DNA of 64,000 nucleotides. It comes from Panopea generosa (Eukaryota; Mollusca; Bivalvia; Adapedonta; Hiatellidae). Shown here piece by piece: positions 1 through 64,000 of the stretch (within the stretch, counting starts at the first letter, position 1; every line of letters begins with the position of its first letter). Under the pieces are notes generated by a model. That model was not told where the DNA came from. It saw only the letters and a list, made by a program, of their open reading frames with translations, and searched no databases. Both the position numbers and the translations under genes were made by a program. The stretch spans positions 7,870,544 to 7,934,543 of the forward strand of contig CM055895.1 in NCBI GenBank assembly GCA_029582155.1, in the 5' to 3' direction.

Positions 1-664
1 TGTTTGTTTGTTACAGCAAATGATCGAATTTTATTTCATTGAATGAACAAATAGTATTGCCACATGTTGCAAAGCCAAGAATGAAAATATTATATGTCTG
101 TGTTAACAATAGATCAAAACGATGAAGTAAATTTCAAAATTTATTTATTATAGTTTTATTTACAATTCTAGGGTTTTATATTTTATTATTTGGATGCAGT
201 TCAGCTTCACTACCCAGTGTGATCCCAAATTCTTCAAATATATGAACGTGATACGAAATAGTTCAAATTTCACTACATTGTTGTAAAATAATCCTTAATT
301 ACAACAGCTTTACATATTTCAGCGTGATACTTAATAGTTCAAATTCCACTAAATTGTTGTAAAGAGTTCGTTAATTGCAACAGCTTAACAGATTTCAACT
401 CGTGATACTTAATAGTTCAAATTCCACTACATTGTTGTTATGAGTTCGTTAATTGCAACAGTTTAACATATTTAAACGTGTGATACTAAATAGTGTAAAA
501 TCCAACACGTTATTGAAAAATACTTACTTAATTACAACTTAATCAATATACATGTATTTCAATGATAAATGATGAATTCACTGTTTCAAACTTCAAACTT
601 GCAAAAGTATATTATTTCACTATATCTACATAATTCATCAAAGCGAATGATTTCAAGAAGGTAC

Positions 665-843
665 CTCAAATTTAATCACAATCACTTGACCAGGTGGCGC
701 TTCAATGATCCAGTTGCAATTCAGATTATCCTTGTAAAAACTCATTCCGTCGTATCCTGGAGATGTAATAACGCCAGTGCTCTCATTTAAATACTTTATA
801 TCACCATGACAACCATCGTCTACATAAACATCGGTTGTAACCG
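665..843 (-). CDS. Gene 2 exon: CUB domain N-terminal half
   Basis: Exon of 179 bases, phase 1 in and phase 0 out, with acceptor ctttag at its right side and donor GAG|GTACCT at its left. It encodes DDGCHGDIKY, then ITSPGY and NCNWIIEAPPGQ, the usual first half of a CUB domain with its first two cysteines (DDGC and NLNC). The second half would lie left of the window; in gene 1 the equivalent partner is 57805-58021. Twin exon at 60208-60386. Confidence 0.93.
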
Positions 844-1213
844 CTAAAGAAGAAAAAATAATGTTTAAAAGAAGATCTAAATACAATAAAATGTTAGAGG
901 GGAAAAAGACTGATACATTGTGTTACAATAAATAGTAATGAAATAATATATGAATAAAAATACTTGTATACATTTATCGTACTTAACTCAATTATGAACT
1001 TGACAAATACCAGTATGCATTTATATTTTAAAACTTATGAATGTATATATTAATGACAAAGTTAATGAATACTCAGAAAAAAATGGGCGTTTGCTTGAAT
1101 GTTACAGAACATTTAGGAAGAATATAAATAAAGTATTGGACAATTCGGGTAAAACTGGACAGTAAGCAGTACATGCACACCAGCCAAAAAAACAACCAGT
1201 ACTGAGGGTCTGC

Positions 1214-1430
1214 GCAACTGAGTTGTCGTCTAAGGCGCGGTCGGCTAGTGACCACTTATCTCGCTGGGTCGTGAGTTTGAGTCCAGCTCGGATTGAAAAC
1301 TTAACGTGAAAAAGATTGCGATTTACTTGTGGAAAGGCGGCGGTTCTACTCATATTCTCTCTGAAATATTTCCCTTTCAAAAATCATTTGCCATATATAA
1401 AAAGACATGTACTGTATATGGCGTTAATCC
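1214..1430 (+). repeat. SINE family B copy (tRNA-like head)
   Basis: A degenerate tRNA-like head with a B-box-like gagtttgagtccagctc is followed by the body motif cgtgaaaaagattgc and a stretch shared with 56876-57080 and, inverted, with 10690-10890. This is typical of tRNA-derived SINEs with a shared body. The duplicate is at 60757-60973. Confidence 0.65.
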
Positions 1431-1560
1431 ATTAAAACCGACAACGAAGTGTGTTAAATAGAAAAAAGGTGCTATAAAGAAAAAACATTGTATTTACAAT
1501 TGTATTGTATCATTGATCAGAGGAATGATATACTCTATATGTTGCTGTTTTTTCTATCCG

Positions 1561-1880
1561 ATGTGCGTGGTCTAGTGGTAGAGCGTCCGCCTCGCATGCG
1601 GAAGGTCGGGGGTTCAATCCCCGGCCGGGTCATACCAAATACTTTAAAAATGGTACTAGAAGCTTCCTCGCTTGACGCTCAGCATTTAGAGGAGATTTCT
1701 AGGTCTAGTCGGTCCGGTGTCAGTATAATGTGACTAGGTGGGGTATCATACCATGTGTCTGCGGCATGATACTCTAGTGTGACAGCGATTAGAATACTGT
1801 CTCAAGTAGACACCGTCGCGATATGACTGAAAAATTGTTGAAAGCGACGCTAAACACCATACAACAACAACAACACTATC
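1561..1880 (+). repeat. SINE family A copy with tRNA-Ala(CGC)-like head and AAC tail
   Basis: Positions 1563-1632 fold like a tRNA: D-arm tctagtggtagag, anticodon stem tccgc/gcgga with loop ctcgcat (anticodon CGC, Ala) and T-arm ggggttcaatccccg. The acceptor stem does not pair, so this is a SINE head rather than a working tRNA gene. A body of about 240 bases follows and ends in caacaacaacaac. Related copies: 61104-61423 (duplicate), 20323-20607 and 24118-24422 (both minus). Confidence 0.8.
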
Positions 1881-2717
1881 CGATGTGTTGATGTCGTAAA
1901 CTTCAAAATATCATAGCGTTCACCGCAAACAAAATGTGTTTATATCCATCACAACTTTATATTGTCCAATTTGTGCAATACGATACTAAGTGTATATGAA
2001 ATAAGAAGGCACTTTGTACCTTTTTTGCACCAGTGGGGCGATTTGTACGTGACAGTAGATCTAATAGTTGTTGAACAACATATTTGATGGTGTTTAAGCA
2101 TAAATTTTCCTAGTCTATATGCTGGTGGACCACTGAAATTTGATTTACCATTCTCACCGAAACAGACACCATATTTTTGGTCAGGTTTGGGAATAAGATA
2201 ATAGAATTTATCAGTATGACATGATATCATAGCATTTGGACGCTTATGTTTATGTAAATAATACGGTTTGATAATTGGGAAATATTTTGTATATCAATGC
2301 CATATTTATTTGATTAATAATGTCAATGACTATTGGAAATTGTGTATATTGGTTTTGAAACAATAAGCTTGAAATTATATTTTTGAAGGCGAGAAAATAC
2401 ATCTTGTGTAAAAAAAGGTTTTATGATTTAAATCAAATCATCAGCAAGGTCCTGTCCTGTAAAAGACAAGGTCCTGTCGACCTCTTCGCGAGTATGTTTG
2501 ACCTTCAAGTGTGATACCCTTATCCAAAACATAACGTTGATATACAGAGTCTTTGTTTATTACTGTGTCACCTCTATTGAAAGACCAGCCACACTGGGCT
2601 TATGACACCTTTATGTTGTACATAATTACTTTTCGAAGGCTAGCCTTGTCATGCACCAGGCTGTTAGACATTTGGTACCCCTTAATTCAACAAGTGGCTG
2701 GATGAGCAGCCGGTCGC

Positions 2718-2845
2718 ATCAGAAAAAATCCAAGTGCTTCCACCTGGATTCGAACCTTCGAACTCCCGCTTCCGAGGCGAACGTCTTAACCACTAGGCCA
2801 CTAGAAAGACTATATAGATTCGCGAAGTGATTTTTTCTGATTTCT
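2718..2845. repeat. tRNA-like core enclosed in an inverted repeat
   Basis: Outer arms atcagaaaaaatc (about 2720) and gattttttctgat (about 2829) are reverse complements. Between them, on the minus strand, is a tRNA-like sequence with D-arm tagtggttaag, anticodon loop ctcggaa and T-arm ggttcgaatcc. Duplicate at 62261-62388. It could be a non-autonomous transposon or a SINE caught in a hairpin. Confidence 0.6.
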
Positions 2846-2981
2846 TAGAAGGGTGGAGCTCATTCAGTATTGCTCGAACACAGAACTTAAGCCGTTGTTA
2901 GAATCTAGGTTAATCAAACTGAGTCTTCCGTTTTCTTTTTCTTTTTTTTTTTTTTTTTTTGGGGGGGGGGGCTTCAAAAAG

Positions 2982-3200
2982 TATATCCCAGAACTTGATA
3001 TCTCACGAATCAGGTCTTTAAAAGCCAAATGAAAAGGCAGAGAGTTCTGTACCTGTCCCACATTTCATAGTACCTTAACGTTTACCAAATTGTGACATCA
3101 TTAAATTTTCGCTGAATCAGTTGACCAATCAACGCGCTCAAAGTTCACTGTTGCATGACGGACCAAAGCGGGAAGAGCTAGGTCCAGTCTACAGTCAAGT
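2982..3200 (+). repeat. ~210-bp interspersed repeat (family R210), copy 1
   Basis: Begins with the hairpin motif cttgatatctcacgaatcagg and contains conserved blocks (tgtcccac-atttcatag, tgacatcatt, gaccaatcaacg, cggaccaa-cgggaagagctagg). Same family as 14592-14830, 23372-23595, 27742-27945, 28262-28450 (minus), 51262-51453 (minus) and 62525-62743. It is flanked on the left by a T/G homopolymer run (2942-2970). Confidence 0.8.
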
Positions 3201-3346
3201 GCTTCCAATATAAAACATTTATCAGATATTATATTTTCATTATCTTAGAGAGTACATGTACATATAAAATATACATTGTCAGACAAATATCGTGAATTAC
3301 AAAATATCAAATTGTTTATTACACGAAGGCAGCCTCGGCGCAATAC

Positions 3347-3540
3347 TGTAAGTAATGTTGAATCCTTTGTCTTCATGGCCATCTTTGTCTGAATAGAACA
3401 GCACAACCATCTCGTGACCAGTAGATACAACATCCGGTGGTATCACGTGACCACAAAACTTTCCAAGGACATCTGATGATGCACGGAAACCATCAAAGAT
3501 ACGTACACCGTCTCTGAGACATAACCGTGTGTTTTCCAGA
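3347..3540 (-). CDS. Gene 2 exon: CUB domain C-terminal half
   Basis: Exon of 194 bases, phase 2 in and phase 1 out. It encodes CLRDGVRIFDG, LGKFCGHVIPP and KGFNITY, the second half of a CUB domain with cysteines three and four. The acceptor is tttactag. The donor is taken at TACA|GTATTG because only that choice gives phase 1 for the next exon (843-665). Reading on without splicing reaches a stop near 3298, so an alternative terminal exon cannot be excluded. Joins 4544-4724 upstream in matching phase. Confidence 0.88.
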
Positions 3541-3654
3541 CTAGTAAATATTACCATACGATAATTTTATCACATTGTTTAATTATAATAAGCAACATTA
3601 ACAAAGCCAAAATACCATTGCCATTATTTTGTTGGCATAAGCGTTAAATTATTA

Positions 3655-3800
3655 CAAGCGGATGGTAGTTTAGTGCATATAGTACTGACCGCTCACACTA
3701 GAGGTCACGAGTTCGTCCCCAGACTCGACCCGATGGTCTCTCAAAACCCGTCTAGTACCAAGGAAACTGACTCGAGAGTGACCCATACAAGCTCTGTGAG
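3655..3800 (+). repeat. tRNA-like SINE fragment
   Basis: A-box-like tggtagtttagtgca and B-box-like region near 3710-3722, followed by a short body. The right-hand duplicate (63198-63343) has a better B-box (gggttctaccccc). No acceptor pairing, so probably a SINE relic. Confidence 0.5.
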
Positions 3801-4543
3801 TTTGATACCAGGATTGACCCAACTGCCTTTCATAAACAATACTCAGTACTAGTTATACACAGGAAACGGAATCGACAGTGATTTGATTTCGTCGCAATCG
3901 AAATAAAATAAATTACAATAAACAAAGACGCAAAATTTAATTTCAATGTACACCCACAGCTGTAATGTTTGCAAGGTGTCTTATATTTACAATTATGTAA
4001 TCATTTTTCCAACATTTAAATATTATATTTTCTGATTTCATGTAATATGCTTAATGTTGTTAAAATCTTTAACTGCGTTTACTGAAACCGGATTTCCTTG
4101 ACATTATCAAGATCGCCGTTAACGTCAAGAGGATCTGCCCTAAATTGGTATTATTTCCATAGTTACAACAAACAGTTGTTTATAGAATAATTTATCTGTG
4201 ATAACGTTATGCTATGAAATTTCAATTTTATCTTCCAATGACATTTTGTCGGTACTTAAGCTTGTTCTGGAGAGCAATTGATCACACTCGTTTTTCAGAA
4301 ATAACAAATATATTGCCCAGCAACTGTAAGGTTTCATATCTTTATAACATTTTAAACGCAAATAAATATACGAGACATTTAGGGATTGTTTTTTACATTT
4401 TAGTGTGAGTGCATTTTCGAAATGTGCACGGGGCTAAAACAATTCAAACGAAAATATATATTCGATGTTTTTTTTCATATAGTTTTAAAATTAAGTGTGA
4501 GCGCATTTTCGATTTGAGATATGCACGGGACTACTAGACTTAC

Positions 4544-7143: not shown

Positions 7144-7234
<91 letters not shown>

Positions 7235-16272: not shown

Positions 16273-16920
16273 GTTAAATCTGGAGTATCATAGTATGCAA
16301 TAATACATCACTCGTGTTAAATCTGGAGTATCATAGTATGCAATAATACATCACTCGTGTTAAATCTGGAGTATCATAGTATGCAATAATACATCACTCG
16401 TGTTAAATCTGGAGTATCATAGTATGCAATAATACATCACTCGTGTTAAATCTGGAGTATCATAGTATGCAATAATACATCACTCGTGTTAAATCTGGAG
16501 TATCATAGTATGCAATAATACATCACTCGTGTTAAATCTGGAGTATCATAGTATGCAATAATACATCACTCGTGTTAAATCTGGAGTATCATAGTATGCA
16601 ATAATACATCACTCGTGTTAAATCTGGAGTATCATAGTATGCAATAATACATCACTCGTGTTAAATCTGGAGTATCATAGTATGCAATAATACATCACTC
16701 GTGTTAAATCTGGAGTATCATAGTATGCAATAATACATCACTCGTGTTAAATCTGGAGTATCATAGTATGCAATAATACATCACTCGTGTTAAATCTGGA
16801 GTATCATAGTATGCAATAATACATCACTCGTGTTAAATCTGGAGTATCATAGTATGCAATAATACATCACTCGTGTTAAATCTGGAGTATCATAGTATGC
16901 AATAATACATCACTCGTGTT
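16273..16920 (+). repeat. 43-bp minisatellite, 15 apparently identical copies
   Basis: Unit starts gttaaatctggagtatcata; the start recurs every 43 bases from 16273 to 16918 (645 bases = 15 x 43). I see no substitution between copies. It lies in the 2.4-kb gene 2 intron between the CUB exons 18227-18329 and 15688-15810. Confidence 0.96.
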
Positions 16921-17019
16921 AAAAAAGTGACGTGTGTAGGATTTAACAGATGCATGTATTTATGAGCATTTTCTTTATTTAAAAAATACTAGAAGGGCCA
17001 TTGCGCTGTCTTTAAAACT

Positions 17020-23690: not shown

Positions 23691-23831
23691 TGTTGGCGGG
23701 TGAAACTGAGTTGCAGTTCGACTGGATTTCGTCAGTATTATCGTTACAGTCATCATCACCATCACACAGCCAGTCGGCCGGTACACAGTTTCCGTCACCG
23801 CACGTGAACTCATGACCACCACAGGAACCAC
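23691..23831 (-). CDS. Gene 2 exon: LDLa module 2
   Basis: Exon of 141 bases, phase 1 in and out, acceptor tttgcag, donor AACA|GTAAGT. It encodes one LDL-receptor class A module: [20 protein letters not shown], then [18 protein letters not shown]. Six cysteines and the acidic calcium cage (DGDDDC...DNTDE) are in place. One exon equals one module, which would allow shuffling or duplication without breaking the frame. Confidence 0.93.
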
Positions 23832-24117
23832 CTGCAAAAGCATTTAAGTCGATAAATCATGTTGTTGTTACTGATGTTGTTATTGTTGTTGCTGCTATTG
23901 CTACCGTTGCAATTTGTATTAGTTGCTGTTCGTCTGTATATTGATAGTGTAAGAGTACCTTCAAAGTACTGTAAATGTGAAAACGGAGATAGCATGGTTT
24001 TAGAGGACGCCAAGTAGGAAGGTGCATATATGCATATGGACATAATCGTATGTGAACAACCAGTCACAAATCTACAGACCAGACAACGGTGAGCACGCCT
24101 AATTACAATGCATGTTG

Positions 24118-24422
24118 TAGTTGTTGTGTGGTGTTTAGCGTTACTTTCAACGATTGTTCAGTTATATCGGGACGATGTCTTCTTGAGACAGTTATCTAAT
24201 CACACTGGATTATAATGCCGCAAACACATGGTATGGTACCCCACACAGTCACATTATACTGACAATGGGCCGACAGGACCTAACATATCCTCTAAATATT
24301 GATCGGCAAGCAAAGAAGCTTCTGGTACCATTTCAAATCTTGTTATGATCCGACTGGTGATCGAATCCACGACCTTCCGCATACGAAACGGACGTTCTAC
24401 CCAAAGACAATCGCTGCGATTA
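24118..24422 (-). repeat. SINE family A copy, minus strand
   Basis: Reverse complement shows tRNA-like head, body and tail homologous to 1561-1880, for example ccgcaaacacatggtatg matching the complement of catgtgtctgcgg. Confidence 0.78.
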
Positions 24423-25034
24423 ACTATACTGCAAACCAAGTACACAATACAATAGAATCAACAACATCAATAGCAATGGTTTCAACCGTTGATTATATAC
24501 CAAAGTTTAACATACATAGTTCAAATAGCAGCCTTAGAAATGATTGTAGATACTTTTATTTATATATGTCCTGATTTCTTTTCACACGATTATCGCATTC
24601 CAGTGTTTGTGTCTTTGCTACTGTCTGTCGGTCATTTAGTAACTTTCATTTCTGTTACATGTTAACCTGTTGTAGATCATACTGCGGTTAAAGGAGAGAA
24701 CATGTCACATGATAAAGCAGAGAAATGTTCTCAGTCAAACCTATGTGCACACCTTCATCAACATCATATAAAGAAATGTATAATAAAAAACAACGGTTTC
24801 ATGAAACGTTATGGAAATGAAGTATCTATATTATTTGGCTATTGTTAATGCACACCTGCGTTACTGTTTCATTTTATAAATGATTGTGTTGCATTTCTGT
24901 CTACAAGTTAAGATGTTTGTAATATATGTTATGCAATTTTAAAGTCAGTCAGCGCAACTAATTGGCGTTTCAGGCATCCGCCGTTTACTATTACTATCGA
25001 CACACTATATCTTCAATCCACTGACTTCTTTCTC

Positions 25035-25180
25035 ACATATTCAGAGTTGGGAGGTATATAGCCCTATAATAAAGTTCATGATCAGTTATCATAGATACAC
25101 TAGCCGGGCAGGGACTTGAACTCAGGGCACTTGATAGGACGGTGAGACGCCTTATCTATTGATCTACTCATGTCCGATTT
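25035..25180 (-). repeat. tRNA-like SINE fragment, minus strand
   Basis: The minus strand contains gagttcaagtccctgcccgg (T-arm-like) and gagtagatcaatagataagg (D-arm-like). No acceptor stem. Confidence 0.5.
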
Positions 25181-25839
25181 AAACTAGTCAAGATAAAACG
25201 GACAGTTGTGATATTCAAGCATATGCAGCATTAACGTCACCACCTTAATTTTTTATTTGGCTCTTGCAGATTTATGGTTATTATATAAGTACTGCATATG
25301 CCTCGAACAAGGAAAGAGGGGAAATGCAAATTAAGGAATATATGAGGGTTTGTTATTTTAAAACATATGTAGAAGATAATCTTGTAGATTTAACTCAGGT
25401 TATTTTGAATAGAATATTAACACATAGCTGGTTAAATATGACATTTGGTTTTGTTTAATGAGAAAGTTCTCACATCGATGCTAAGATTAACCACCGCCCC
25501 GTTGCCATTAGCGATAGTTTCCAATGGTGTGATTGACGTAAATTAATAAAACACTACTTATGCAGTTGTTTTTGCAGAGACATATTTGTATCAAATGCAT
25601 ATGTGTGTATTTGATTGACATCTATCTATTCTGCTCATGGTATATGCATATATACCATCAGCAGTTCCATTGCAATGTACATACATACACATAAATACAC
25701 ATATATATCATATCACGTCTATCTCTTGGGGGTATATTTGATTTGATACTATTTGGCTAATGATAGACACATGGTATCATCATGTTTACTGTTACGGCTA
25801 GATAGTGTAGATAGTTCACTGCTGATTGTATATACCAAC

Positions 25840-25965
25840 CTGGTGTAACGCCATTGCAGTTTTGTTCGTCACTGTCATCACCACAATCATCATCATTATC
25901 ACAACGGAAGACGGCGTTGATACACTTATCATTCGCGCATTTGAACTGAGATGAGCTACACGTGT
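25840..25965 (-). CDS. Gene 2 exon: LDLa module 1
   Basis: Exon of 126 bases, phase 1 in and out, acceptor atttcag, donor CCAG|GTTGGT. It encodes [18 protein letters not shown], then [17 protein letters not shown]: six cysteines and the DxxDE calcium-binding end of an LDLa module. It sits directly before a second LDLa exon of the same phase. Confidence 0.92.
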
Positions 25966-30769: not shown

Positions 30770-31112
30770 ATACAGATAAAATATTTAAATTCAAATAAAA
30801 CATATCTAGATATATGCGCATATGACCCAAATTGTGTTATTAGACACATAAACAGAATGCACAATCCCTTCTTGAACATATTCAAACCTGCTACAGCCTG
30901 CAAAATGATACACATTTCATAAAATATCCAATTTGGTTTAATCAAAACATTAAGGTCGGAGGCACAAATATATTTTATAACCATTGGTTTTTAAGGGGTA
31001 TTAATAATTATGAATACAAATGGTAATTTCTATTCGATGATAGATTTTATCAATAGGTACAACATAACTACAGACTTCATAGAATATGAAGGATTGCTAG
31101 CATATGTTAGAA
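30770..31112 (+). pseudogene. LINE ORF2 3' fragment (same family as 46169-49883)
   Basis: Matches about 48830-49230 with small deletions: shared blocks include agacacataaacagaat, ggtcggaggcacaa, gaatacaaatggtaatttct and agaatatgaaggattgctag. Frames are broken. It stops exactly where the split-direct-repeat element begins (31118), and I find no continuation on the far side. Confidence 0.85.
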
Positions 31113-31117
31113 TATAT

Positions 31118-31840: not shown

Positions 31841-31853
31841 CCCCCCACCCGAG

Positions 31854-32159: not shown

Positions 32160-32314
32160 TCACTAATGTAAAACCAATCCCTCATTACTTTGTATTATAC
32201 ATGTAGTCAACTTACAAAATATACACAGCCCAACAGCTACAATTTATCAATTAAATCACCTTACACGCACATATTGGCACAGCCTATTCTACTGTCAAGT
32301 TCTTCGACTATGAT

Positions 32315-32524: not shown

Positions 32525-32933
32525 AATTAAGTCTGGTCATAGTATACAAACATGATAAAAACAGATAAAATATGAAAAGTAAAGTTAAAGATGACTAGAG
32601 AAATACTATTTATGAACAAGTATTAAAAAATGAATAATCTTGAATTAAATAAACACTCAAATAAGGATAAGTATATGATCAAGAACGCTGACCCAACTTG
32701 CAATATCAAATACATGTAGTGAACAATAATATGGGGTGTGGTGGGCGGGCAAAAATAATCAAGGTTTGCTAAATCGATTCTATGCCGGATGTTGCAGCTG
32801 CAGAAAGGCCGAAGCAATCCGCATGAGTTTACTTAACGAGAACATCCGAGACTAACCAAATGAATGTAAACAAATACACGAAAATGATCTGCCAAAATAA
32901 ATGTGATTATTTTTATTCGAAAAATAATCTGTA

Positions 32934-33656
32934 TTATTTTAGGACTAGAATCATATATGTACAAACACAAACAAGATAAACATTCGATTAACTTTAATTA
33001 ATCAAAGCAAAGTACACAATATAAATCTGAGTATTGTTAAAAATGGAATAATATTATGGCCGCAACTTTAATCTGTCTCGTCAGGTTCCTCCACAAATAA
33101 TATATATCTATGGCACCGGGCTGAGACAATAAAACTTTCTCAAAAAGAGCCGAAAGGCGACCATGTGCACGCCCATTAAAATATGGCTGACCATAGCAAA
33201 TCTTTATTTATTTGTCAGCAATTGGCAAAATATCAGCAATCAGCAAAATGTCAGCAATTGGCAAGATATAAGCGATCAGCAAAAATTCAGCAATGGGCAA
33301 AATATCAGCAATAGGCAAAATATTAGCAAGAATCGGCAATACGCAAGTGTTAGCAATTAGCAACTTATCACAGCCAAAGATGTGAGCAAACCTGAGAGCT
33401 GCCTGCTTTTGTGATTGAGCAAAACTCAGTACTCAAACAAAAAACTGTTTAATTTTGTTCGAGTGATCAACTCCCACCTGCAAAGGCGATGCAGTCGAAA
33501 CTGCCACTCTGTCAGAGGGAGCAACCACCCGAATATTAGTTGTTAAAAATGAATGATACAATCTTTTAGTCACCCAATGATTTCCTACTAAGGACCATAG
33601 TTGTGACGAGATTGTAAAGGCGCACACACGATCGACCCCCCGGCTGTTAGAATTTT
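32934..33656. repeat. 723-bp direct repeat, copy B1
   Basis: Partner of 31118-31840. The SGNH stop codon lies 51 bases beyond its right end. Identity of both copies implies recent insertion or gene conversion. Confidence 0.96.
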
Positions 33657-33706
33657 TCCGCCACTATAAATTTGCCATAAAAATAGAAAATTTATCCGCC
33701 AAAAAT

Positions 33707-34272
33707 TTAAAGACCCAGCTTAGAAATTACTGCATCTCTTAATGCGTCCATTAACATTTCAAGACCAACTTCAGAAAGGTGGACACCATCAGGCCTGAAG
33801 AAACCAGGGGTAGAAAAATCTATGTCCGCAACTAGGGAATCACCTCTGACTCCAGCTGCACGCATCACTTGTTGCCTTCCAAAACGATTTATTCTTCTCC
33901 TTTTTTGCTCAGCTAGGACATTCAAACTGTCGTCAATGCCCCAGTGTACCCTCTGGGTTATATCAAACCATATGAGGTAAATATTGGGGAATGCTGCAGT
34001 TAAATAATTAACACCCGTCCTAATCAATTTCATGAGTTTAAAAATAGACATTGACATGATGTCATTACCACCCAAATTTATGACTACGACAGAAGGAGGT
34101 GTTTGAAACAGCACCCTCAGCTGTAAACTGTGATTAAAATCACCCCATGACATTCCCCTTATACCATATCAGCCAATGTGTTGATCGAACGGGATTCTCA
34201 AATTTGGCCTTCCTGAATCAATTGCTCTTCGGCCGGCCCAAAACACAATGGAGTCACCCAATATCCATACAC
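33707..34272 (-). pseudogene. SGNH hydrolase-like ORF of the YR element, one in-frame stop
   Basis: After acceptor cactgcag the exon reads VWILGDSIVFW (block I, catalytic Ser in GDS), then INLGGNDIMSM (block III, GND) and RPDGVHLSEVG (block V, DxxH with catalytic Asp/His), ending KLGL and TAA. All SGNH catalytic blocks are present. A TGA at 34169-34171 interrupts the frame between block I and the MSWGDF segment; the rest is open. SGNH enzymes are serine esterases/lipases; the role in a retroelement is unknown. It may be a decayed copy, a read error, or the stop may be real and translation start at MSWGDF (34153). Confidence 0.85.
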
Positions 34273-34341
34273 CTGCAGTGAGAATTGAACCAAAGTTATA
34301 TTCTTCCATATTCTGTATTTGTATTTGATTTTCGTTCCTAA

Positions 34342-34405
34342 CTAGTTGCGTATGTAGCGTGCATAGGCATTAGAACGCCAACGGCCCAACTTCATAATAA
34401 CTTCA
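34342..34405 (-). pseudogene. Tyrosine recombinase C-terminal exon
   Basis: The minus strand after a possible acceptor (cttgtcaag) reads EVIMKLGRWRSNAYARYIRN and stop. GRW-x-S-x-AY-x-RYIR is the C-terminal block of phage-integrase-type recombinases of eukaryotic elements, with the nucleophilic tyrosine in RYIR. The expected upstream block with HxxR is not found in the next 1.4 kb, so only the last exon survives here or the intron is long. Confidence 0.78.
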
Positions 34406-35800
34406 CTTGACAAGAACAACAAACTGAAGAACAACAAACAAACATACTAGAAAATAAAAAAGGAAACTTGCCATATCAAAACAATCCAAGACACTCTAAA
34501 ACTTCATTAATATTAAACGTTAGTAATTATTTTCATGACAACTTCTTTAAAATATTAATTTCACATAATACCCAATTTAGGAATTTATTACCCAATTCAG
34601 GAATTTAATTTCAAATGGAATGGCTATACAATTAAGTTGACTTTTTTTTAACATGCTACATTCTATCATCATGACTGGTCCACGCAGCGTGACTCTCCAT
34701 TGTTTTATTTGCAAGTTGCTCGACACGTTTTATCCCGGCCTCGATCTCGCAGTTTTTCAATTAATCTTCATTTCGTGTTTGATGTCACTCATGAGGATCT
34801 GAACTGCCGTTGTTATTGGAAAACAAACATTGGATTGTTGTCGTTCATCGATCATTATTGCAAATCAGAGCTAACAAGGTCACAACGAAGAGATGATTAA
34901 ACCGACATAATGTATAAACGCCGCTCTACCAAAGACAGTTGTGCTACAATATGGGACAAGCGGTCGCTTTGACATTCCTGTTACCGTCTTTCAAACACTT
35001 TTGATGTTTACAATAAAAAAAAATAACCGATATACTTGTATATTTTATGAAAGTAAGCTATGGTTTGTATGGTCAAAATGACATAGTTACATAGTATTAT
35101 GTAATAAAACTGGCATCTACAAAGATTTAAAGTCGGTACTTGTCAATATAAACTTGTTTATGTCTAACCTTCATAATGTTATTGTTTTATGGTAATCAGT
35201 TGGTTTTCTCTTCTTTCGCATATGCATTTTCCACTTTAGAGCTTACTGCAGAGTTCACTTTATTTTTTTAATTCGTTATATTGTGCAACCATCAAAAAAA
35301 TTTTTTATTTTTTTTCCTTGTTTTTATATTCATTTTAGTTACAGAAAGCGTAAAGCTATAGCGTAATGTATTTATACATGTATGTAACTGTGATTTCCCA
35401 TGTTAATATTTACTAAAATATGCTCGTACAAGCCAGCACAATGAACCCATAACCAAAGACAATGGCACGACAACCAAAGAAAATAATACACTGATCTATT
35501 AAGATATTAATGCTGAACATAAGGTAGTTCAGGCGTTCCAGAAAGAGTGGATATGTGTAGTTATCATCTGTTAGCCCTCGATGGCATATAACTAACAATA
35601 CACATTCAAACATACGAAGAAAATAATTGACAATGTCACTACTCTCTTTTTCATACACACTTTTCTCAATTTCATCTTTTTTAGTTTTTCCGTTTATTTT
35701 GATGTCGTCTAAAATCCTACTTCCATAATGGAAACTCTAAAACTGTTTTTCATTATTTAAAAAACAACTTTATTGATAGAGATTCATTGACATCATTTCA
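34406..35800. other. Gap between genes, nothing firmly recognised
   Basis: No A2-like copy, reverse transcriptase or clear host exon found. Short open frames (34700-34900 plus, 35413-35658 minus) have no domain support. The promoter and first exon of gene 2 should lie somewhere between 30.5 and 35.8 kb, but I could not point to them. Confidence 0.4.
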
Positions 35801-42134: not shown

Positions 42135-43813
42135 ATTGCCGTGAAGAAAATTTTTCAGTCATCAAAATCATTTTGCTTGTGTCACCTTTGTTTTTATGTA
42201 TGCCAGTGTCTTTAGATTCTAAAATACTGATCGGTTAGTTCTCGACAGAATAAGAACTAAAACCCTTTAGTTTATAATCGAACCTTGTGCACTCGTTTGG
42301 AATTTCCTTGGAAATTCCAAATCTATTTATATTTATTATAGTCTTCTGCCCGGTTCAGTGTCTTTTATACTTTGTTATTGTTTTCATCGAGTACAAACAA
42401 ATAACGGCGAATGCACAGTTTATTATCGTTTCGAATAATAAGTATTATGTATCACACTTTATTTCTAATTGTTTCTATAAACCAGAGTATCAGTTAGTAT
42501 GTGAAAATTAGCTGAAACGTTTACACCATCAGCAGGAACGTTATTTGCAAAATTTAGTACGGTAGTTTGAGATTTAAAACTATACATATCACCCATATCG
42601 GACATTAATAAATCCAAAAACTGTTGTAATCTTTAGTAAACGTACACATTGAACAACAGACTGTCGTAATTACTATAAAACAGTCTTCAAAATAAAAAAA
42701 TCTTAGAATTTATAGTTTTTTATATTGTTAAATGTAGGCATGCATTTTACCTGCTCTATTTAACTGGTCATTAATAACATGTTACTGAATGCTTCGTATA
42801 AAATTAAATAAAATGGCAAGGTAATGGCATGCTCAGAGATAATTATTGCAATATATCAATTGTACTATCACTACCATTTCATCAGTTTAATGCTGAAATT
42901 GTATGGTTATGATGGCCATAATCAAAAAGAGGCTAGTTGATTTTAATTCATGTATCACAAGTGTCCAAGCCAAGAATAAACATGTTGATTTCAAACATGA
43001 TATTGTTTGTTTAGGTCTTATTTGTATCAATATAAAAAACATTGAAACTCCAAATTAAAAAAATAAAACATTTTTTTCAAAACGATGTTCCCTTTTTTTT
43101 AAATAGATATTGATCAAATCTTTGTTTCTTCTAATTTATTTTATAGGACATGTATGTGAAGGCAACTATGTTGAATGTGTGGAATGTGTACCAAGATGTA
43201 ACTGGTATACCAATTAAGAAGTTTTTATTGACTGACATAAGTGTGTGGGTTAAAGTATAGGGGCAGGTGTCTATATGAATTCTATATCGCTATGTACAGT
43301 ATAATGAAGTCTTAACTTTGCTGTAAATGGTGATATAGATATAAAATTAACATTAGCCCTTATTGATAAAAGAATCTAATATAATTTTCCGTTCACTAAT
43401 GTACTTTCTAATTGTGTCCTTAATGGGTAAATGAGCCATAGTTATAAACTTATGTTTGTTTGACAATTACTATAACTTACTGATAAATATATCATAATAT
43501 ATGTATATAAAATATATCATGAAGCTGGAATATCAATTTAAAAAAGTTGTTTAACAATGGACATGTATAGTGTGGTTTAACGTGTCTGATATTACTTTTC
43601 TTACACTGATATTTATGTACTTTCTAATGAACTTATATCATGCATAATTAATGTAAATTAATGATAAATATGGATATAACCTGGTTTTAGTACCATACAA
43701 GATGAAGGAAAGAAACAATACTGTACAGCAGATCTTAAAGAACACATTAACTTTTCGCTTTCGGACAAGGGATCTAGTATTGATCTGAGGTACACATGTT
43801 GTTTTACACCCCC

Positions 43814-43850
<37 letters not shown>

Positions 43851-44440
43851 AGAACTAGAATAACTAGAATAAATACAACATCATTCTTCACTACAAAGAA
43901 GAAATTCTGTCTGGTTTATGTGGGAGATTTGGTTCAGAGGTATATATATTTTGCCATTAAATTTTGGTTAACTTCATCTTCAATGGTAAATATATGCCTC
44001 GGAGAGTATAGGGAGCAACAAAAAAGGGTTAACAAATACAATATAAGCAGAAGAAATGTCTTTATTTTATGTAACCGTAATATTCAATTAAATGGAATAT
44101 TTTATAAAGAACTTGTCAATAGCTGAACATCAAATAGTCAAATAGTTAAGTAACTAAAACATTATACTTGGTTAACTTATATTGTATTTAATATGATTAA
44201 GCAACAGATAAAAAAAAATACTATGTTGTTTGTAAAAGTTGTGTTAAAATCAGAAAGATATGAAGATATTGTACAAGTTTACAAAATATCTTGCTAGGTT
44301 GTTATTATAATTGATTGTTATCAGTAGTTTACTATATATGAAAAGTTGTTAAATATGCCTACTTTTTTCTCATTTTTTTTTAGGTTACGAATATAATATC
44401 AAAACTGGCGGTGCAGTTTAGGAGCTGAAAGTATACAACT
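42135..44440. other. Sequence between the LINE ORFs: AT-rich, with a C homopolymer
   Basis: No domain recognised. A run of about 40 C bases (43808-43847) is broken only near its left end. If ORF1 and ORF2 come from one element this must be later insertion, since such LINEs normally have a short gap between the ORFs. Confidence 0.45.
43808..43847 (+). repeat. Poly-C homopolymer (~40 bases)
   Basis: Nearly pure C run; the poly-Gly frame on the minus strand (43658-43891) is an artefact. A length this great is prone to assembly error. Confidence 0.95.
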
Positions 44441-44447
44441 TAACATT

Positions 44448-44935
44448 GTTTGCATTGTAGCTAGGCTTACTCGCCGTAGTCTGGTCTGTACATTTATGTC
44501 TTGGTTATTCACAAATAATTATCTCCATATATATATCATGCATTGTGAAATGGGCATCTGAAAAGATCCCAAAAATCGTAAATTCCGTTGTTGTGAATTT
44601 AATTATCTCCCTTTATGAAATTAAATATAAATGAATTCACTGTATCTATATGATATAACGGGTTTATAAATATGTCCTTTATATAGCATGTGAGTAGTCA
44701 TGAATCCTTAACTGGATCCTACTCATATAAAGCTATCACTTCATGTATGTAAATTTGTCTACCCTGTCCAGATGTGTTGCATGTAATTCCATAGCATATA
44801 AGTCATGGTCGACACAAAATTTCTATGGTTTGGCAGAGGCCTTGATATTGTATCTATGGTTTGCATTGTAGCTAGGCGCACTCGCCGTAGTCTGGTCTGT
44901 ACATTTATGTCTTGGTTATTCACAAATAATTATCT

Positions 44936-44977
<42 letters not shown>

Positions 44978-45715
44978 ATAATAATAATAATAGTTTTTCA
45001 CTCACCTGAGCATATTGACCATTGGTGAGCCTACCTGATTGCTTTTTGTCTGTTGTAACGACAATGTCATAACTTTTTTGCTTTGTTTTTTAAAGAAATT
45101 GGTCTGAAAGTATATGGCCTCAGAGGCTGAAAACTTTTATTATTAAATTATCTTGGAAAGCCAGTAAATTTGGAAGTATATTATCCCTTTTCAATTATTG
45201 AGCTATATGTATGGACATGTATGTAGGTGTATACATATGTGTGTGTGTGTATGTATTTGTGTGGGCATGGGTATGTGTATGAGTATGTATATATATATAT
45301 TTATGTGTGTGTGCATAGGTATGTGTATGTATGTATATAAATCGTAGCTTTTGTAAGTGTGAATTTAATTATCTCCCATTATGAAATTAGATATATATGA
45401 ATTCACTGTATCTATATGATCCGACGGGATTTATAAATCTGACCTTTATATAGCATGTGAGTAGTCACGAATCGTTAATTGGATCCTACTTACTCATATA
45501 AAAATATCAGTTCAGTATGTAAATTTGTCCACCCAGTCCAGATGTGTTGCATGTAATTCCATAGTATACAAGTCATTGCCGACACCAAATTTATTGGTTG
45601 GAAAGACCTTGATATTGTGTCTATGGTTTGTATTGTAGCTAGGTGCACTCGCCGTAGTCTGGTCCGTACATTTATGTCTTGGTTATTCACAAATGATTAT
45701 CTCCATATATATATA
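44448..45715 (+). repeat. ~412-bp tandem repeat, 2 full and 1 partial copy, with microsatellite insertion
   Basis: Units start gtttgcattgtagctagg at 44448 and 44859 and, with one change, at 45626 (partial). The second unit is split by about 400 bases of AT, ATA and GTGTAT microsatellite plus other sequence (about 44937-45355), then resumes at gaatttaattatctccc. The partial third copy ends at 45715. Confidence 0.9.
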
Positions 45716-46168
45716 TAAAATGTATATAAATATTGGGATATCTATTGGAGAACAACCAGGCACATATGAGTGTAGAGTTGTGTGTGTATGAGACTATATG
45801 TTTTTATATTTGTATATATATAAGTATATCATGTCAGTACTTCCTTTTAAAAAACTGAATTGAACTGAAAACATTGAAGTATCCTAAAGTAAAAGTATGT
45901 TTTCTTATTACTGCTCTTTACACGAGTTGCCTTACATTTTTGTGTAGATGATGTTTTTGTGTTATTTTAAATTTTTAGTATTATTTTGTTGGAGAGGAAA
46001 TGGAAATTAAGAGATAAATGTATACAATACCTCCATAAACGCTGATCAATGCAACTTGCATGCACACAGACTTCGTCTTTTTACCGGTACCACAACATTG
46101 AATAATACATTTTTTGTTAAGAACAACTTGTGTCTCTGCATATATTATTTGTTTAGTTCATATCTTAA

Positions 46169-49100
46169 ATGAGGAGTAATATTTCAATTATATCTATAAA
46201 AGTACAGGGTCTTGGAGATAAAGATAAGCGACAAGATACATTTGGCTTTCTCAAAAGTAAACAATATCAATTTATTTTCTTCGAGACACTCATTTTACTG
46301 ATGCAGATATACCTTTTATATGTACTCAGTGGGGTAATGAATGTTTTTTTAGCAATTTTTCTAGCCAATATAGAGGTGTAGCTATTCTTTTTAACAACAA
46401 TTCTGAATTCAAAGTATATTCAGCGGAAACAAACCAAAATGGAAAATAAAATTATATACGATATAACTCCATGTAATAAAACAATTAAACTTATAAACAG
46501 CTATGGCCCAAATAGAGATGATCCTAATTTCTATGATAACCTGAAGGAGAATATTCTAGCAACTAATTCTTTAACCATCATTGCTGGACACTTCAATGTA
46601 GCTCTGAAGCCTAATATAGACTATTTTGAATACATTAATATAAATAATCCAAATGCTCGAAAAAGTCTTCAAGATTAATTGATTGAGTGTAATTTGACAG
46701 ATTGTTGGCGCGATCAACATTTAAAAGAAAACAAATTCACAAATTTAAAAAAACTTTCGAAAGAAAGCAAAACTTGACTTCTTTTTAACATGTTTGATAA
46801 TGGATATTGACACTGCAGATATAACACCAGGATATAGAACTGACCATTCTCTAGTCCGTTTGATACTAGAATTTCGAAAAATTGAAAAAGGAAAATCATA
46901 TTGGAAATTCAACAATTCACTTTTAAAAGATATAAACTATATTGATAAAATAAAGAATACAATAAACCGTGTAAAATTACAAAACGCTTAAGAGACTTTT
47001 AATAATGATATAAATAATGTTCCAAATGAGGAGTAACAATTTAATATAAGTAAGCATCTATTTTTAGGAAGTGCTTTTATTTGAAATTCGTGGAGTAACT
47101 ATTTCTCATTCCTCTTACATCAAACGACAACGAGATCAAAGGGAAGCAATTCTTTAAAATGAAATTGAAAATCTAGAAAAAAGAAATCATACAAAACCAT
47201 ACTTTAATAGAATAAAAAAAAGAGAATTAATTGATATAAGAGAGAAAAAATGGAAGGAATAAGAATGAGATCGCGGGCAAAAAGTGTGCAAGAAGGAAAA
47301 AAAAGAACTCTATATATTTTTGCAATTTAGAACTAGGAATTATACATCAAAATCAATGTTACAACTTCAGGCATTTAATGGTCAAATTTTAAAAACGCAA
47401 GATGAACTACTTCAAGAAACCAAACAGTTTAATAAAGAATTATATTCACCTAGGGAAATTAAAAACATAAATTTAAATGATAACTTTTCACATTTAAATG
47501 TATCAAAATTGAATTAAATTAAGAAAACATTACTTGTTGGTCCCATTACCTATGAGGAACTGCTAGCTTTTTTAAAAAATATGTCGAATGATAAAAGTCC
47601 AGGCTTTGACGGATATACGGTTGAATGTTACAAATTCTTTTGGATAGACGTAGGACATTTTGCGTGCTATAAATGAGGGATATACTAAGGGAGAACTTTC
47701 AATTTCACAACAGCAAGGGGTCATAACATGTTTACCAAAGGGGAACAAAGATAAATCGTTTTTTTTTTAAAAAATTGGCGCCCAATTTCACTTTTAAATG
47801 TTTCTTACAAGTTAACATCTGGATGTATAGCCAAAAGAATGAAATATATTTTACCAATTATTATTGATAAGGATCAGACACGATTTTTGTCATTGGCGAA
47901 AATACTTAATTATTGTATGAGCTAATGTTTTATTTAGAAAAGAATCATGTACCAGGCATGTTACTACTAATTGACTTTGAGAAAGCATTCGACTCGGTCG
48001 CCTGGGTTTTTATTTTTGCTGTTCTTAATTGTTTAACTTTGGTCCATCCTTTATTTAATGTGTCAAAGTATTTTATACAAATATAGAATCATGTGAACTG
48101 TCAAAGGACACTTGTCAGAGTGGTTCTACTTACAGAGATGCTGTAGATAAGGAGACCCATTATCCCCATATATATTCGTTTTATGTAGAGATCCTTGCTG
48201 TTCTAATCATAAATAGCCCTAATATAAAAGGAATACAGATTGACAATACAAACTTTTTTTCATTTCACAATATGCCGATGACAACACTCATGCTTGATTG
48301 TTCAGAAAAATCACTTGTAAACACACTTCAAACACTCGTTTTTTTATGCTGAAATCTCCGGCCTAATATCAATGTTGATAAAACTAAGGCAGTGTGGATA
48401 GGTTCAATGAAGATTAGTAATATTAAGTTATGTGAGCAATATAATGTTTCTTGGGACAATGACTTAACTGTCCTTGGTATTCGATTTTCAGTAGATCTAG
48501 ACAAAATAATTTATGTGAACTTTGATGATAAAATACGTGACATAAAACAACATCTTATCCATTGGTCAAAACGAATATTAACACTAATTGGTAAAATAAC
48601 AATCTTAAAAAGTTTAGCCATATCAAAAATTAATCATTTTATCTTAGCTGTACCAAACCCTAACTCAGATAAAATTAAAGAGATTAAATTTTTTTTTTTT
48701 TAAATTTATTTGGAATGGTAAACCGGATAAGGTGAAAAGAACTACTCTTTGCAACTCTTACATAAAAGGGGGTCTCAAAATGTATGATATATACCTTTTT
48801 ATTAACTAATAAGATCCCACATGGATAAGACACCTTTTAAACTCAAATAAAAAATATCTAGATATATTTAATTCAATGTATCCATTCATGTCAAATGTTG
48901 GCGCATATGGCCCGGATTTTATTAGTAGACACATAAACAGAATACATAATCCCTTCTGGAAAGATATTTTTAGAAGTTATCAAACATATTCAAACCTACT
49001 AAAGCCTGCAAATTGGTACACATTTCCAAAAATTCCAATTTGGTTTAACCCAAACATTTAGGTCGGAGGCACAAGTATATTTTATAACTATTGGTTCTCT

Positions 49101-58021: not shown

Positions 58022-58029
58022 CTAGAAAC

Positions 58030-59540: not shown

Positions 59541-60207
59541 TGTTTGTTTGTTTGTTACAGCAAATGATCGAATTTTATTTCATTGAATGAACAAATAGTA
59601 TTGTCACATGTTGCAAAGCCAAGAATGAAAATATTACATGTCTGTGTTAACAATAGTTCAAAACGATGAAGTAACTTTCAAAGTTTATTTATTTAGTTTT
59701 ATGTCCTATTCTAGGGTTTTATATTTTATTATTTGGATGCAGTTCAGCTTCACTACCCAGTGTGATCCAAAATTCTTCAAATATATGAACGTGATACGAA
59801 ATAGTTCTAATTTCACTACTTTGTTGTAAAATAATCCTTAATTACAACAGCTTTACATATTTCAGCGTGATACTTAATAGTTCAAATTCCACTAAATTGT
59901 TGTAAAGAGTTCGTTAATTGCAACAGCTTAACAGATTTCAACTCGTGATACTTAATAGTTCAAATTCCACTACATTGTTGTTATGAGTTCGTTAATTGCA
60001 ACAGTTTAACATATTTAAACGTGTGATACTAAATAGTGTAAAATCCAACACGTTATTGAAAAATACTTACTTAATTACAACTTAATCAATATACATGTAT
60101 TTCAATGATAAATGATGAATTCACTGTTTCAAACTTCAAACTTGCAAAAGTATATTATTTCACTATATCTACATAATTCATCAAAGCGAATGATTTCAAG
60201 AAGGTAC

Positions 60208-60386
60208 CTCAAATTTAATCACAATCACTTGACCAGGTGGCGCTTCAATGATCCAGTTGCAATTCAGATTATCCTTGTAAAAACTCATTCCGTCGTATCC
60301 TGGAGATGTAATAACGCCAGTGCTCTCATTTAAATACTTTATATCACCATGACAACCATCGTCTACATAAACATCTGTTGTAACCG
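60208..60386 (-). CDS. Gene 1 exon: CUB domain N-terminal half
   Basis: Twin of 665-843 with the same encoded residues; one synonymous difference is visible in the Thr-Thr-Asp stretch. Phase 1 in, phase 0 out. Here the partner half is present in the window, at 57805-58021. Confidence 0.94.
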
Positions 60387-60756
60387 CTAAAGAAGAAAAA
60401 ATAATGTTTAAAAGAAGATCTAAATACAATAAAATGTTAGAGGGGAAAAAGACTGATACATTGTGTTACAATAAATAGTAATGAAATAATATATGAATAA
60501 AAATACTTGTATACATTTATCGTACTTAACTCAATTATGAACTTGACAAATACCAGTATGCATTTATATTTTAAAACTTATGAATGTATATATTAATGAC
60601 AAAGTTAATGAATACTCAGAAAAAAATGGGCGTTTGCTTGAATGTTACAGAACATTTAGGAAGAATATAAATAAAGTATTGGACAATTCGGGTAAAACTG
60701 GACAGTAAGCAGTACATGCACACCAGCCAAAAAAACAACCAGTACTGAGGGTCTAC

Positions 60757-60973
60757 GCAACTGAGTTGTCGTCTAAGGCGCGGTCGGCTAGTGACCACTT
60801 ATCTCGCTGGGTCGTGAGTTTGAGTCCAGCTCGGATTGAAAACTTAACGTGAAAAAGATTGCGATTTACTTGTGGAAAGGCGGCGGTTCTACTCATATTC
60901 TCTCTGAAATATTTCCCTTTCAAAAATCATTTGCCATATATAAAAAGACATGTACTGTATATGGCGTTAATCC
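60757..60973 (+). repeat. SINE family B copy (duplicate of 1214-1430)
   Basis: Part of the right duplicated block; one difference in the head (gtctacgcaac versus gtctgcgcaac). Confidence 0.65.
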
Positions 60974-61103
60974 ATTAAAACCGACAACGAAGTGTGTTAA
61001 ATAGAAAAAAGGTGCTATAAAGAAAAAACATTGTATTTACAATTGTATTGTATCATTGATCAGAGGAATGATATACTCTATATGTTGCTGTTTTTTCTAT
61101 CCG

Positions 61104-61423
61104 ATGTGCGTGGTCTAGTGGTAGAGCGTCCGCCTCGCATGCGGAAGGTCGGGGGTTCAATCCCCGGCCGGGTCATACCAAATACTTTAAAAATGGTACT
61201 AGAAGCTTCCTCGCTTGACGCTCAGCATTTAGAGGAGATTTCTAGGTCTAGTCGGTCCGATGTCAGTATAATGTGACTAGGTGGGGTATCATACCATGTG
61301 TCTGCGGCATGATACTCTAGTGTGACAGCGATTAGAATACTGTCTCAAGTAGACACCGTCGCGATATGACTGAAAAATTGTTGAAAGCGACGCTAAACAC
61401 CATACAACAACAACAACACTATC
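61104..61423 (+). repeat. SINE family A copy (duplicate of 1561-1880)
   Basis: Same tRNA-Ala(CGC)-like head and AAC tail; one difference in the body (cggtccgatgtc versus cggtccggtgtc). Confidence 0.8.
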
Positions 61424-62260
61424 CGATGTGTTGATGTCGTAAACTTCAAAATATCATAGCGTTCACCGCAAACAAAATGTGTTTATATCCATCACAACTT
61501 TATATTGTCCAATTTGTGCAATACGATACTAAGTGTATATGAAATAAGAAGGCACTTTGTACCTTTTTTGCACCAGTGGGGCGATTTGTACGTGACAGTA
61601 GATCTAATAGTTGTTGAACAACATATTTGATGGTGTTTAAGCATAAATTTTCCTAGTCTATATGCTGGTGGACCACTGAAATTTGATTTACCATTCTCAC
61701 CGAAACAGACACCATATTTTTGGTCAGGTTTGGGAATAAGATAATAGAATTTATCAGTATGACATGATATCATAGCATTTGGACGCTTATGTTTATGTAA
61801 ATAATACGGTTTGATAATTGGGAAATATTTTGTATATCAATGCCATATTTATTTGATTAATAATGTCAATGACTATTGGAAATTGTGTATATTGGTTTTG
61901 AAACAATAAGCTTGAAATTATATTTTTGAAGGCGAGAAAATACATCTTGTGTAAAAAAAGGTTTTATGATTTAAATCAAATCATCAGCAAGGTCCTGTCC
62001 TGTAAAAGACAAGGTCCTGTCGACCTCTTCGCGAGTATGTTTGACCTTCAAGTGTGATACCCTTATCCAAAACATAACGTTGATATACAGAGTCTTTGTT
62101 TATTACTGTGTCACCTCTATTGAAAGACCAGCCACACTGGGCTTATGACACCTTTATGTTGTACATAATTACTTTTCGAAGGCTAGCCTTGTCATGCACC
62201 AGGCTGTTAGACATTTGGTACCCCTTAATTCAACAAGTGGCTGGATGAGCAGCCGGTCGC

Positions 62261-62388
62261 ATCAGAAAAAATCCAAGTGCTTCCACCTGGATTCGAACCT
62301 TCGAACTCCCGCTTCCGAGGCGAACGTCTTAACCACTAGGCCACTAGAAAGACTATATAGATTCGCGAAGTGATTTTTTCTGATTTCT
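62261..62388. repeat. tRNA-like core in inverted repeat (duplicate of 2718-2845)
   Basis: Same arms and core as the left copy, with one base change just outside (ttcttggaaggg versus ttcttagaaggg). Confidence 0.6.
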
Positions 62389-62524
62389 TGGAAGGGTGGA
62401 GCTCATTCAGTATTGCTCGAACACAGAACTTAAGCCGTTGTTAGAATCTAGGTTAATCAAACTGAGTCTTCCGTTTTCTTTTTCTTTTTTTTTTTTTTTT
62501 TGGGGGGGGGGGGGCTTCAAAAAG

Positions 62525-62743
62525 TATATCCCAGAACTTGATATCTCACGAATCAGGTCTTTAAAAGCCCAATGAAAAGGCAGAGAGTTCTGTACCTGTC
62601 CCACATTTCATAGTACCTTAACGTTTACCAAATTGTGACATCATTAAATTTTCGCTGAATCAGTTGACCAATCAACGCGCTCAAAGTTCACTGTTGCATG
62701 ACGGACCAAAGCGGGAAGAGCTAGGTCCAGTCTACAGTCAAGT
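62525..62743 (+). repeat. R210 repeat (duplicate of copy 1)
   Basis: Duplicate of 2982-3200 with one base difference (aaagcccaatg). The preceding T/G homopolymer has a different T:G split but the same total length. Confidence 0.8.
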
Positions 62744-62889
62744 GCTTCCAATATAAAACATTTATCAGATATTATATTTTCATTATCTTAGAGAGTACAT
62801 GTACATATAAAATATACATTGTCAGACAAATATCGTGAATTACAAAATATCAAATTGTTTATTACACGAAGGCAGCCTCGGCGCAATAC

Positions 62890-63083
62890 TGTAAGTAATG
62901 TTGAATCCTTTGTCTTCATGGCCATCTTTGTCTGAATAGAACAGCAAAACCATCTCGTGACCAGTAGATACAACATCCGGTGGTATCACGTGACCACAAA
63001 ATTTTCCAAGGACATCTGATGATGCACGGAAACCATCAAAGATACGTACACCGTCTCTGAGACATAACCGTGTGTTTTCCAGA
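62890..63083 (-). CDS. Gene 1 exon: CUB domain C-terminal half
   Basis: Twin of 3347-3540 (CLRDGVRIFDG, LGKFCGHVIPP, KGFNITY) with one Val-to-Leu replacement. Its N-terminal partner should lie beyond the right edge, by analogy with 4544-4724. Confidence 0.88.
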
Positions 63084-63197
63084 CTAGTAAATATTACCAT
63101 ACGATAATTTTATCACATTGTTTAATTATAATAAGCAACATTAACAAAGCCAAAATACCATTGCCATTATTTTGTTGGCATAAGCGTTAAATTATTA

Positions 63198-63343
63198 CAA
63201 GCGGATGGTAGTTTAGTGCATATAGTACTGACCGCTCACACTAGAGGTCACGGGTTCTACCCCCGACTCGACCCGATGGTCTCTCAAAACCCGTCTAGTA
63301 CCAAGGAAACTGACTCGAGAGTGACCCATACAAGCTCTGTGAG
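63198..63343 (+). repeat. tRNA-like SINE fragment (duplicate of 3655-3800)
   Basis: Same element, with a better B-box: cgggttctacccccgactcg where the left copy has cgagttcgtccccagactcg. Confidence 0.5.
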
Positions 63344-64000
63344 TTTGATACCAGGATTGACCCAACTGCCTTTCATAAACAATACTCAGTACTAGTTATA
63401 CACAGGAAACGGAATCGACAGTGATTTGATTTCGTCGCAATCGAAATAAAATAAATTACAATAAACAAAGACGCAAAATTTAATTTCAATGTACACCCAC
63501 AGCTGTAATGTTTGAAAGGTGTCTTATATTTACAATTATGTAATCATTTTTCCAACATTTAAATATTATATTTTCTGATTTCATGTAATATGCTTAATGT
63601 TGTTAAAATCTTTAACTGCGTTTACTGAAACCGGATTTCCTTGACATTATCAAGATCGCCGTTAACGTCAAGAGGATCTGCCCTAAATTGGTATTATTTC
63701 CATAGTTACAACAAACAGTTGTTTATAGAATAATTTATCTGTGATAACGTTATGCTATGAAATTTCAATTTTATCTTCCAATGACATTTTGTCGGTACTT
63801 AAGCTTGTTCTGGAGAGCAATTGATCACACTCGTTTTTCAGAAATAACAAACATATTGCCCAGCAACTGTAAGGTTTCATATCTTTATAACATTTTAAAC
63901 GCAAATAAATATACGAGACATTTAGGGATTGTTTTTTACATTTTAGTGTGAGTGCATTTGCGAAATGTGCACGGGGCTAAAACAATTCAAACGCAAATAT

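Follow-up and report, generated by a model that had tools for sequence, protein, structure and literature searches.

A probably genuine tandem duplication of a CUB/LDLa protease locus, joined at a putative mobile element and accompanied by a probable residual haplotype

The stretch of 64,000 nucleotides analysed here (the window, C2:7870544-7934543 of an assembly of 1.474 Gb in 39 contigs, over which all our genome searches were made) holds parts of two copies of a large block with a CUB/LDLa protease gene and, between them, a dispersed 3.3-kb repeat that we regard as a putative mobile element. The window begins and ends with nearly the same sequence: positions 1-4457 recur, in direct orientation, at 59545-64000 with 99.35% identity (BLAST, E = 0), 28 substitutions and one 1-bp gap, and the offset of 59,544 holds through position 149 and becomes 59,543 past the gap at 150. 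The sequence-only reading of this DNA had reported this match, rightly as to its existence and orientation, with the second copy starting at 59541 instead of 59545, and had asked whether it reflects a tandemly duplicated unit of about 59.5 kb or two haplotypes wrongly placed in series. As the match runs to a window edge at either end, how far the repeat extends cannot be read from the window alone. The extension and self-alignment suggested in that reading, carried out with 100 kb on each side (264 kb in all; the first self-alignment listed only pieces longer than 600 bp), place the terminal match within a direct repeat with copies of 52 kb and 56 kb.

Copy 1 occupies C2:7849664-7901660 (52.0 kb; positions 1-31117 of the window and 20.9 kb past its left edge), and copy 2 occupies C2:7904956-7961254 (56.3 kb; positions 34413-64000 and 26.7 kb past the right edge). 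The copies are direct and colinear, have one defined junction, and there is no N across the 264 kb that hold both of them. They are chained in ten blocks with length differences of 4.9 kb, about 1 kb, 689 bp, 456 bp and smaller, and carry insertions of 0.3-4.9 kb with respect to each other. The supposed 59.5-kb unit is thus an offset composed of a 52-56 kb unit, the 3.3-kb element and indels. Likewise, a difference well under 1-2% holds for the visible tract, but the whole copies are about 2.7% apart with kilobase-sized indels. Within the tract itself 12 of the 29 differences crowd into positions 60-277. As a separate observation, the substitutions of the tract are 19 transversions, none of them between C and G, and 9 transitions, fewer than generally expected; across the five further blocks of copies 1 and 2 the ratio of transitions to transversions ranges from 7:14 to 63:46.

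The space between the copies is exactly filled by the dispersed repeat (31118-34412). In the genome search the query 31100-34500 matched C6:80944092-80947386, with an identity that rounds to 100%, and C15:21028039-21031334 (98%), and the ends of the element are known because both matches cover exactly the query positions 19-3313. The homology of copy 1 to copy 2 ends 6 bp inside the element, and that of copy 2 begins 3 bp before the element's end. The element contains two 731-bp direct repeats, 31118-31848 and 32934-33664, which differ at 2 sites (0.27%), and a minus-strand open reading frame (ORF) at 34168-33710 of the GDSL lipase type (Pfam, E 3.4e-6). GDSL/SGNH ORFs and internal direct repeats are known from several retroelement groups, and we give the element no class. 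Judged by its internal repeats, the element looks young, younger than the 2.7% divergence of the copies. A second element at an outer edge of the tandem was considered and ruled out, as no other match was found at E 1e-5 in the 264 kb, nor was there one in the 60 kb around a third copy described below; one element lies exactly at the junction and none at the outer edges.

The protease gene of copy 2 (gene 2, minus strand) is spliced in phase from 18 exons into a protein of 902 amino acids (aa), in which a putative signal peptide, recognised by eye in our own scan as a hydrophobic start with a phase-compatible donor, is followed according to Pfam by CUB, LDLa, LDLa, CUB, CUB, CUB, LDLa and trypsin, i.e. 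four CUB, three LDLa and one trypsin domain. Nine of its exons lie in the window (35867-63083): the second exon of CUBx (63083-62866), CUBy (60386-60208 and 58021-57805), LDLa2 (56553-56449) and the trypsin domain (54803-54617, 53754-53495, 37148-37003, 36319-36235 and 35943-35867, ending in the stop). Exon 1 and eight further exons are found to the right of the window. Exon 1 (C2:7964020-7963963) is situated 2.7 kb outside the unit, on its right side, with a TATA-like box 140 bp upstream of the ATG, and its 401-bp surrounding was found at two genome places only, one belonging to gene 2 and one to the third copy.

Gene 1, also on the minus strand, keeps an open frame from the CUBz exon through to its stop (883 aa), with no counterpart of exon 1 and promoter of gene 2, and the phase of its first acceptor is that found at the module boundaries of gene 2. 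Ten of its exons are in the window (665-30486), belonging to CUBz (30486-30297 and 29836-29646), LDLa1 (25965-25840), LDLa1b (23831-23691), CUBw (20787-20663, 18329-18227 and 15810-15688), CUBx (4724-4544 and 3540-3323) and the first exon of CUBy (843-665), and seven more lie to the left. A degenerate CUBw exon that runs into a stop was considered and rejected, since the middle CUBw exon was found and joins in phase with a weak donor, GTCACA. The idea that the two partial genes in the window fit one full-length design is right in that gene 2 is represented in the window by its 3' part and gene 1 by its 5' part. It fails in that exon 1 and the promoter are outside the duplicated unit and gene 1 is devoid of them.

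Gene 1 and gene 2 differ in 16 protein columns (13 substitutions and 3 gap columns), and 10 of the 16 fall in the two N-terminal LDLa exons (23691-25965 in gene 1, C2:7953091-7956089 in gene 2), where pN is 0.044 and pS 0.041, from small counts (9 nonsynonymous and 2 synonymous differences); the rest of the protein is nearly identical. H710, D759, S852 and D846 are invariant in all five aligned proteins, and we take the first three to be the catalytic His, Asp and Ser and D846 to be the Asp of a trypsin-type pocket. With its CUB and LDLa modules followed by a C-terminal trypsin domain the protein resembles the ovochymase-1-like proteases and the MASP-related molecule type 2 proteases, the ovochymase/MReM type (MASP-related molecules are treated in an excerpt of PMC9835746). 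Its best matches are from bivalves, namely Mercenaria (54%), Ruditapes (53%), Mactra (51%), and Mya and Dreissena (46%). The identity in the alignment is 58% to Mercenaria P0001, 40% to Littorina P0007 and 39% to P0011 of the brachiopod Lingula. The architecture is different: by Pfam on the sequences, the Mercenaria protein is of 578 aa with CUB-CUB-LDLa-trypsin, and that of Littorina is of 760 aa with LDLa-CUB-CUB-CUB-LDLa-trypsin.

The expanding family of mosaic proteases that the sequence-only reading had envisaged is not borne out by the genome search. The 86-aa trypsin exon occurs at three near-identical places (99-100%), all in C2, and the next match has 36% (20 of 20 candidates scored); as two repeats explain the three places, there is no expanding family. 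We also considered and rejected an intragenic polyprotease amplification, for which all module-boundary introns being of phase 1 would be suitable: the trypsin exons end in a stop, and of the tandem genes only gene 2 has exon 1.

In the third copy the counterpart of the query tract is C2:8623065-8627651, with 95% identity over 1-2944 and 99% over 3008-4460, and in 60 kb around it there is one unit only. Its left flank continues the left flank of copy 1 with 0.75% difference over 6,131 sites, and its right part is closest to copy 2 (99%). The element is absent from its left edge, and also from its right edge, because the distance 8653064-8656692 equals that in copy 2 (3628 versus 3629 bases). 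This is the single further haplotype-like copy that we examined for a parental state.

The likeness extends well beyond the unit. Probes from the flanks have partners (7770544 at 99%, 7830544 at 98%, 7974544 at 97% and 8030544 at 96-97%), as has the promoter-region probe 7963843 (99%). Probe 8480001 pairs with 7732252 (97%), 8400001 pairs with 7648993 (98%), and for the minisatellite probe 8250101 the sole other genome place found is near 8945.6k (best 95%). Taken together, the anchors at 7.649-8.2506 Mb and 8.400-8.946 Mb form a colinear, near-adjacent direct repeat of about 0.7 Mb, mostly at 96-99%; it is known from anchor points, and the stretches between them are mostly not aligned. Of ten 130-bp probes, two had a partner, with 40 candidates scored of 3193 and of 730; probe 7650001 is a repeat, 7300001 found only itself among the matches listed, and 7450001 and 8200001, being simple repeats, were omitted from the queries.

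Three-way alignment of the copies covered 43,020 sites in 73 of 86 tiles of 600 bp, the 13 tiles that lacked a good match in one or both of the remaining copies having been dropped. The pairwise differences were 2.68% (copies 1 and 2), 1.63% (1 and 3) and 2.73% (2 and 3), and the divergence is patchy, with chi-square per degree of freedom of 8.8, 10.6 and 11.7, respectively. A clear pairing was seen in 51 of the 73 tiles: 32 join copy 1 with copy 3, 11 join 2 with 3, and 8 join 1 with 2. These topologies come in blocks, in 10 runs as compared to 28.3 in shuffles, and none of 5000 shuffles gave as few. The longest run that joins copies 1 and 2 is inside the reported terminal tract, which holds four of the eight such tiles. 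The tract is one low-divergence stretch, and another is at 16-22 kb of the window (0.2-0.9% per kb). Indels between the copies support all three pairings. It suggests a mosaic of the sort that recombining haplotypes make.

From these data we consider it probable that the 52-56 kb block is a true, likely heterozygous, tandem duplication arisen by unequal exchange between two elements, and that the 0.7-Mb repeat contains the unduplicated allele, left in the assembly. Two allelic chromosomes would have carried the same young 3.3-kb element, at the left edge of the block in one and at the right edge in the other, and an unequal crossover between these two elements would yield the order left flank, block, element, block, right flank. 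The right breakpoint would fall between promoter and exon 1 on one side and exon 2 of the protease gene on the other, which leaves gene 2 whole and gene 1 beheaded. Each block would derive from a different older haplotype, two old alleles now being in cis, so that the 2.7% would reflect allelic diversity that was inherited, rather than the time since duplication. We prefer the crossover between heterozygous insertions because it best joins the exact element junction, the apparent youth of the element and the allele-like mosaic.

The single copy 0.7 Mb away would then be the unduplicated allele. The flanks are present twice and the unit three times in the assembly, as expected from a diploid with a 2+1 arrangement, and if the partner is the other allele, at least one chromosome must have two units and the tandem is real. 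The suspicion of haplotypes in series was apt, but it fits better the 0.7-Mb repeat with its third, single copy, which is probably an alternate haplotype laid in series, a residual haplotypic duplication. The claimed tandem with its protease gene is supported by the gap-free direct repeat, the mobile element exactly at its junction and three distinct unit sequences in one assembly. A choice between tandem and two haplotypes is not a clean one, since an inter-haplotype crossover gives a true tandem whose copies differ as haplotypes do.

Several points weigh against this interpretation. The parental chromosomes with single edge elements are hypothetical, the identity of the element's internal repeats at insertion is an assumption, and the 2+1 count would fail if the sample were pooled or polyploid. 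Mosaic divergence can also arise by gene conversion between true paralogues. Among the 40 of 730 candidates scored, probes 7550001 and 8300001 had no partner near the expected place, which suggests the end of the large repeat, and neither had 8100001 (a repeat) and 8800001 (poly-T), which are inside it.

Nested true duplications would make the 0.7-Mb repeat a real tandem segmental duplication in which the 52-kb block was doubled again in one arm, with later gene conversion. The colinear, near head-to-tail anchors would suit such a history, as would the minisatellite probe with its only two genome places, both in the arms, and the mosaic topologies could be conversion tracts. However, patches of 0-0.5% beside patches of more than 3% look allelic and not of a single age, no other close gene copy was found in the genome search, and residual haplotypic duplications were frequent in the earlier platypus, zebra finch and hummingbird assemblies (excerpt of PMC9516828), so we hold this history to be unlikely. 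In keeping with the heterotype false duplications of that paper, the 0.7-Mb repeat, by its anchor points, is long and colinear, lies next to its partner, shows haplotype-like divergence and has a partner without the internal structural variant.

An assembly error at the smaller scale, where two alleles of the block were joined in silico through the 3.3-kb element, seems to us still more doubtful. In its favour, a dispersed repeat sits at the junction, the differences between the copies are haplotype-like, and precisely this layout would result from such a join; the error could hold were the 0.7-Mb partner a genuine paralogous segment. Gap-free joins by unsupported sequence from wrong gap filling are described for some false duplications (excerpt of PMC9516828). 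On the other side, the gap usual for heterotype false duplications is missing from the tandem, and the error needs a gap-free misassembly across a 3.3-kb repeat that we infer to be short for long-read assembly. Should the third copy represent the other allele, three unit sequences in one diploid call for a real duplication, and the element is at neither edge of that copy. End joining could also have made an ordinary tandem duplication long ago, the element having landed at the junction afterwards by chance and the copies having drifted 2.7% apart since. This history needs no special parental state, but it is highly improbable, as in so large a block an insertion would hardly fall by chance within a few bases of the junction, the element appears far younger than the divergence of the copies, and that divergence is strongly over-dispersed.

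Tandem duplication of this kind is already known. Both heterozygous (allele-specific) and false tandem duplications are described in PMC9516828, and the heterozygous ones share with our case two copies in series without a gap and an expected haploid read depth, unlike it in the mobile element at the junction and the third copy 0.7 Mb away. Unequal exchange between transposable elements is documented for roo elements at the Drosophila white locus (excerpt of PMC7003089), where, as proposed here, exchange between two copies of one element changes the copy number and leaves an element at the join; in our case the exchange would be between heterozygous insertions in a bivalve-like genome and would have captured allelic divergence. 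Gene presence-absence is common in heterozygous invertebrates, for instance in Mytilus (excerpt of PMC7653742).

Duplicates from an inter-haplotype crossover are divergent from birth, and dating by sequence makes them look old; annotation may count them as an expanded family. The locus shows this trap at two scales, with a probably real, young partial tandem that resembles two haplotypes and a probably false 0.7-Mb duplication alongside. If the latter is a residual haplotype, the other genes in it are also counted twice. A junction element younger than the copies it separates can serve as a simple test for heterozygous invertebrates. The pairing of alleles in cis, if true, would make heterozygosity heritable without a second chromosome. 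It may even be imagined, as a quite remote extension, that the crossover of two heterozygous young-element insertions put divergent CUB/LDLa protease alleles in cis and that read-through from gene 2 expresses gene 1 as one more CUB/LDLa/trypsin module, the product being an ovochymase-like protein with two proteases.

Among minor features, a 4.9-kb segment of copy 2 (43158-48049) is for the most part shared by copy 3 (3.75 kb) and is missing from copy 1; the region has ORFs that look LINE-like (long interspersed nuclear element) by eye, and five ORFs of 41.3-49.4 kb gave no Pfam match. A 43-bp minisatellite at 16273-16923 has 15.1 copies that are 100% identical, and 553 bp at this place are in copies 1 and 2 and not in copy 3. 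The window had no match to Rfam at gathering score, for tRNA or otherwise, and the tRNA-Pro (cgg) called by ARAGORN in both copies (2734-2808 and 62277-62351) is probably tRNA-like repeat sequence. A short interspersed repeat of about 311 bp, at 1565-1875 and 61108-61418, is found at no fewer than 37 further genome places with 95-97% identity (40 candidates scored).

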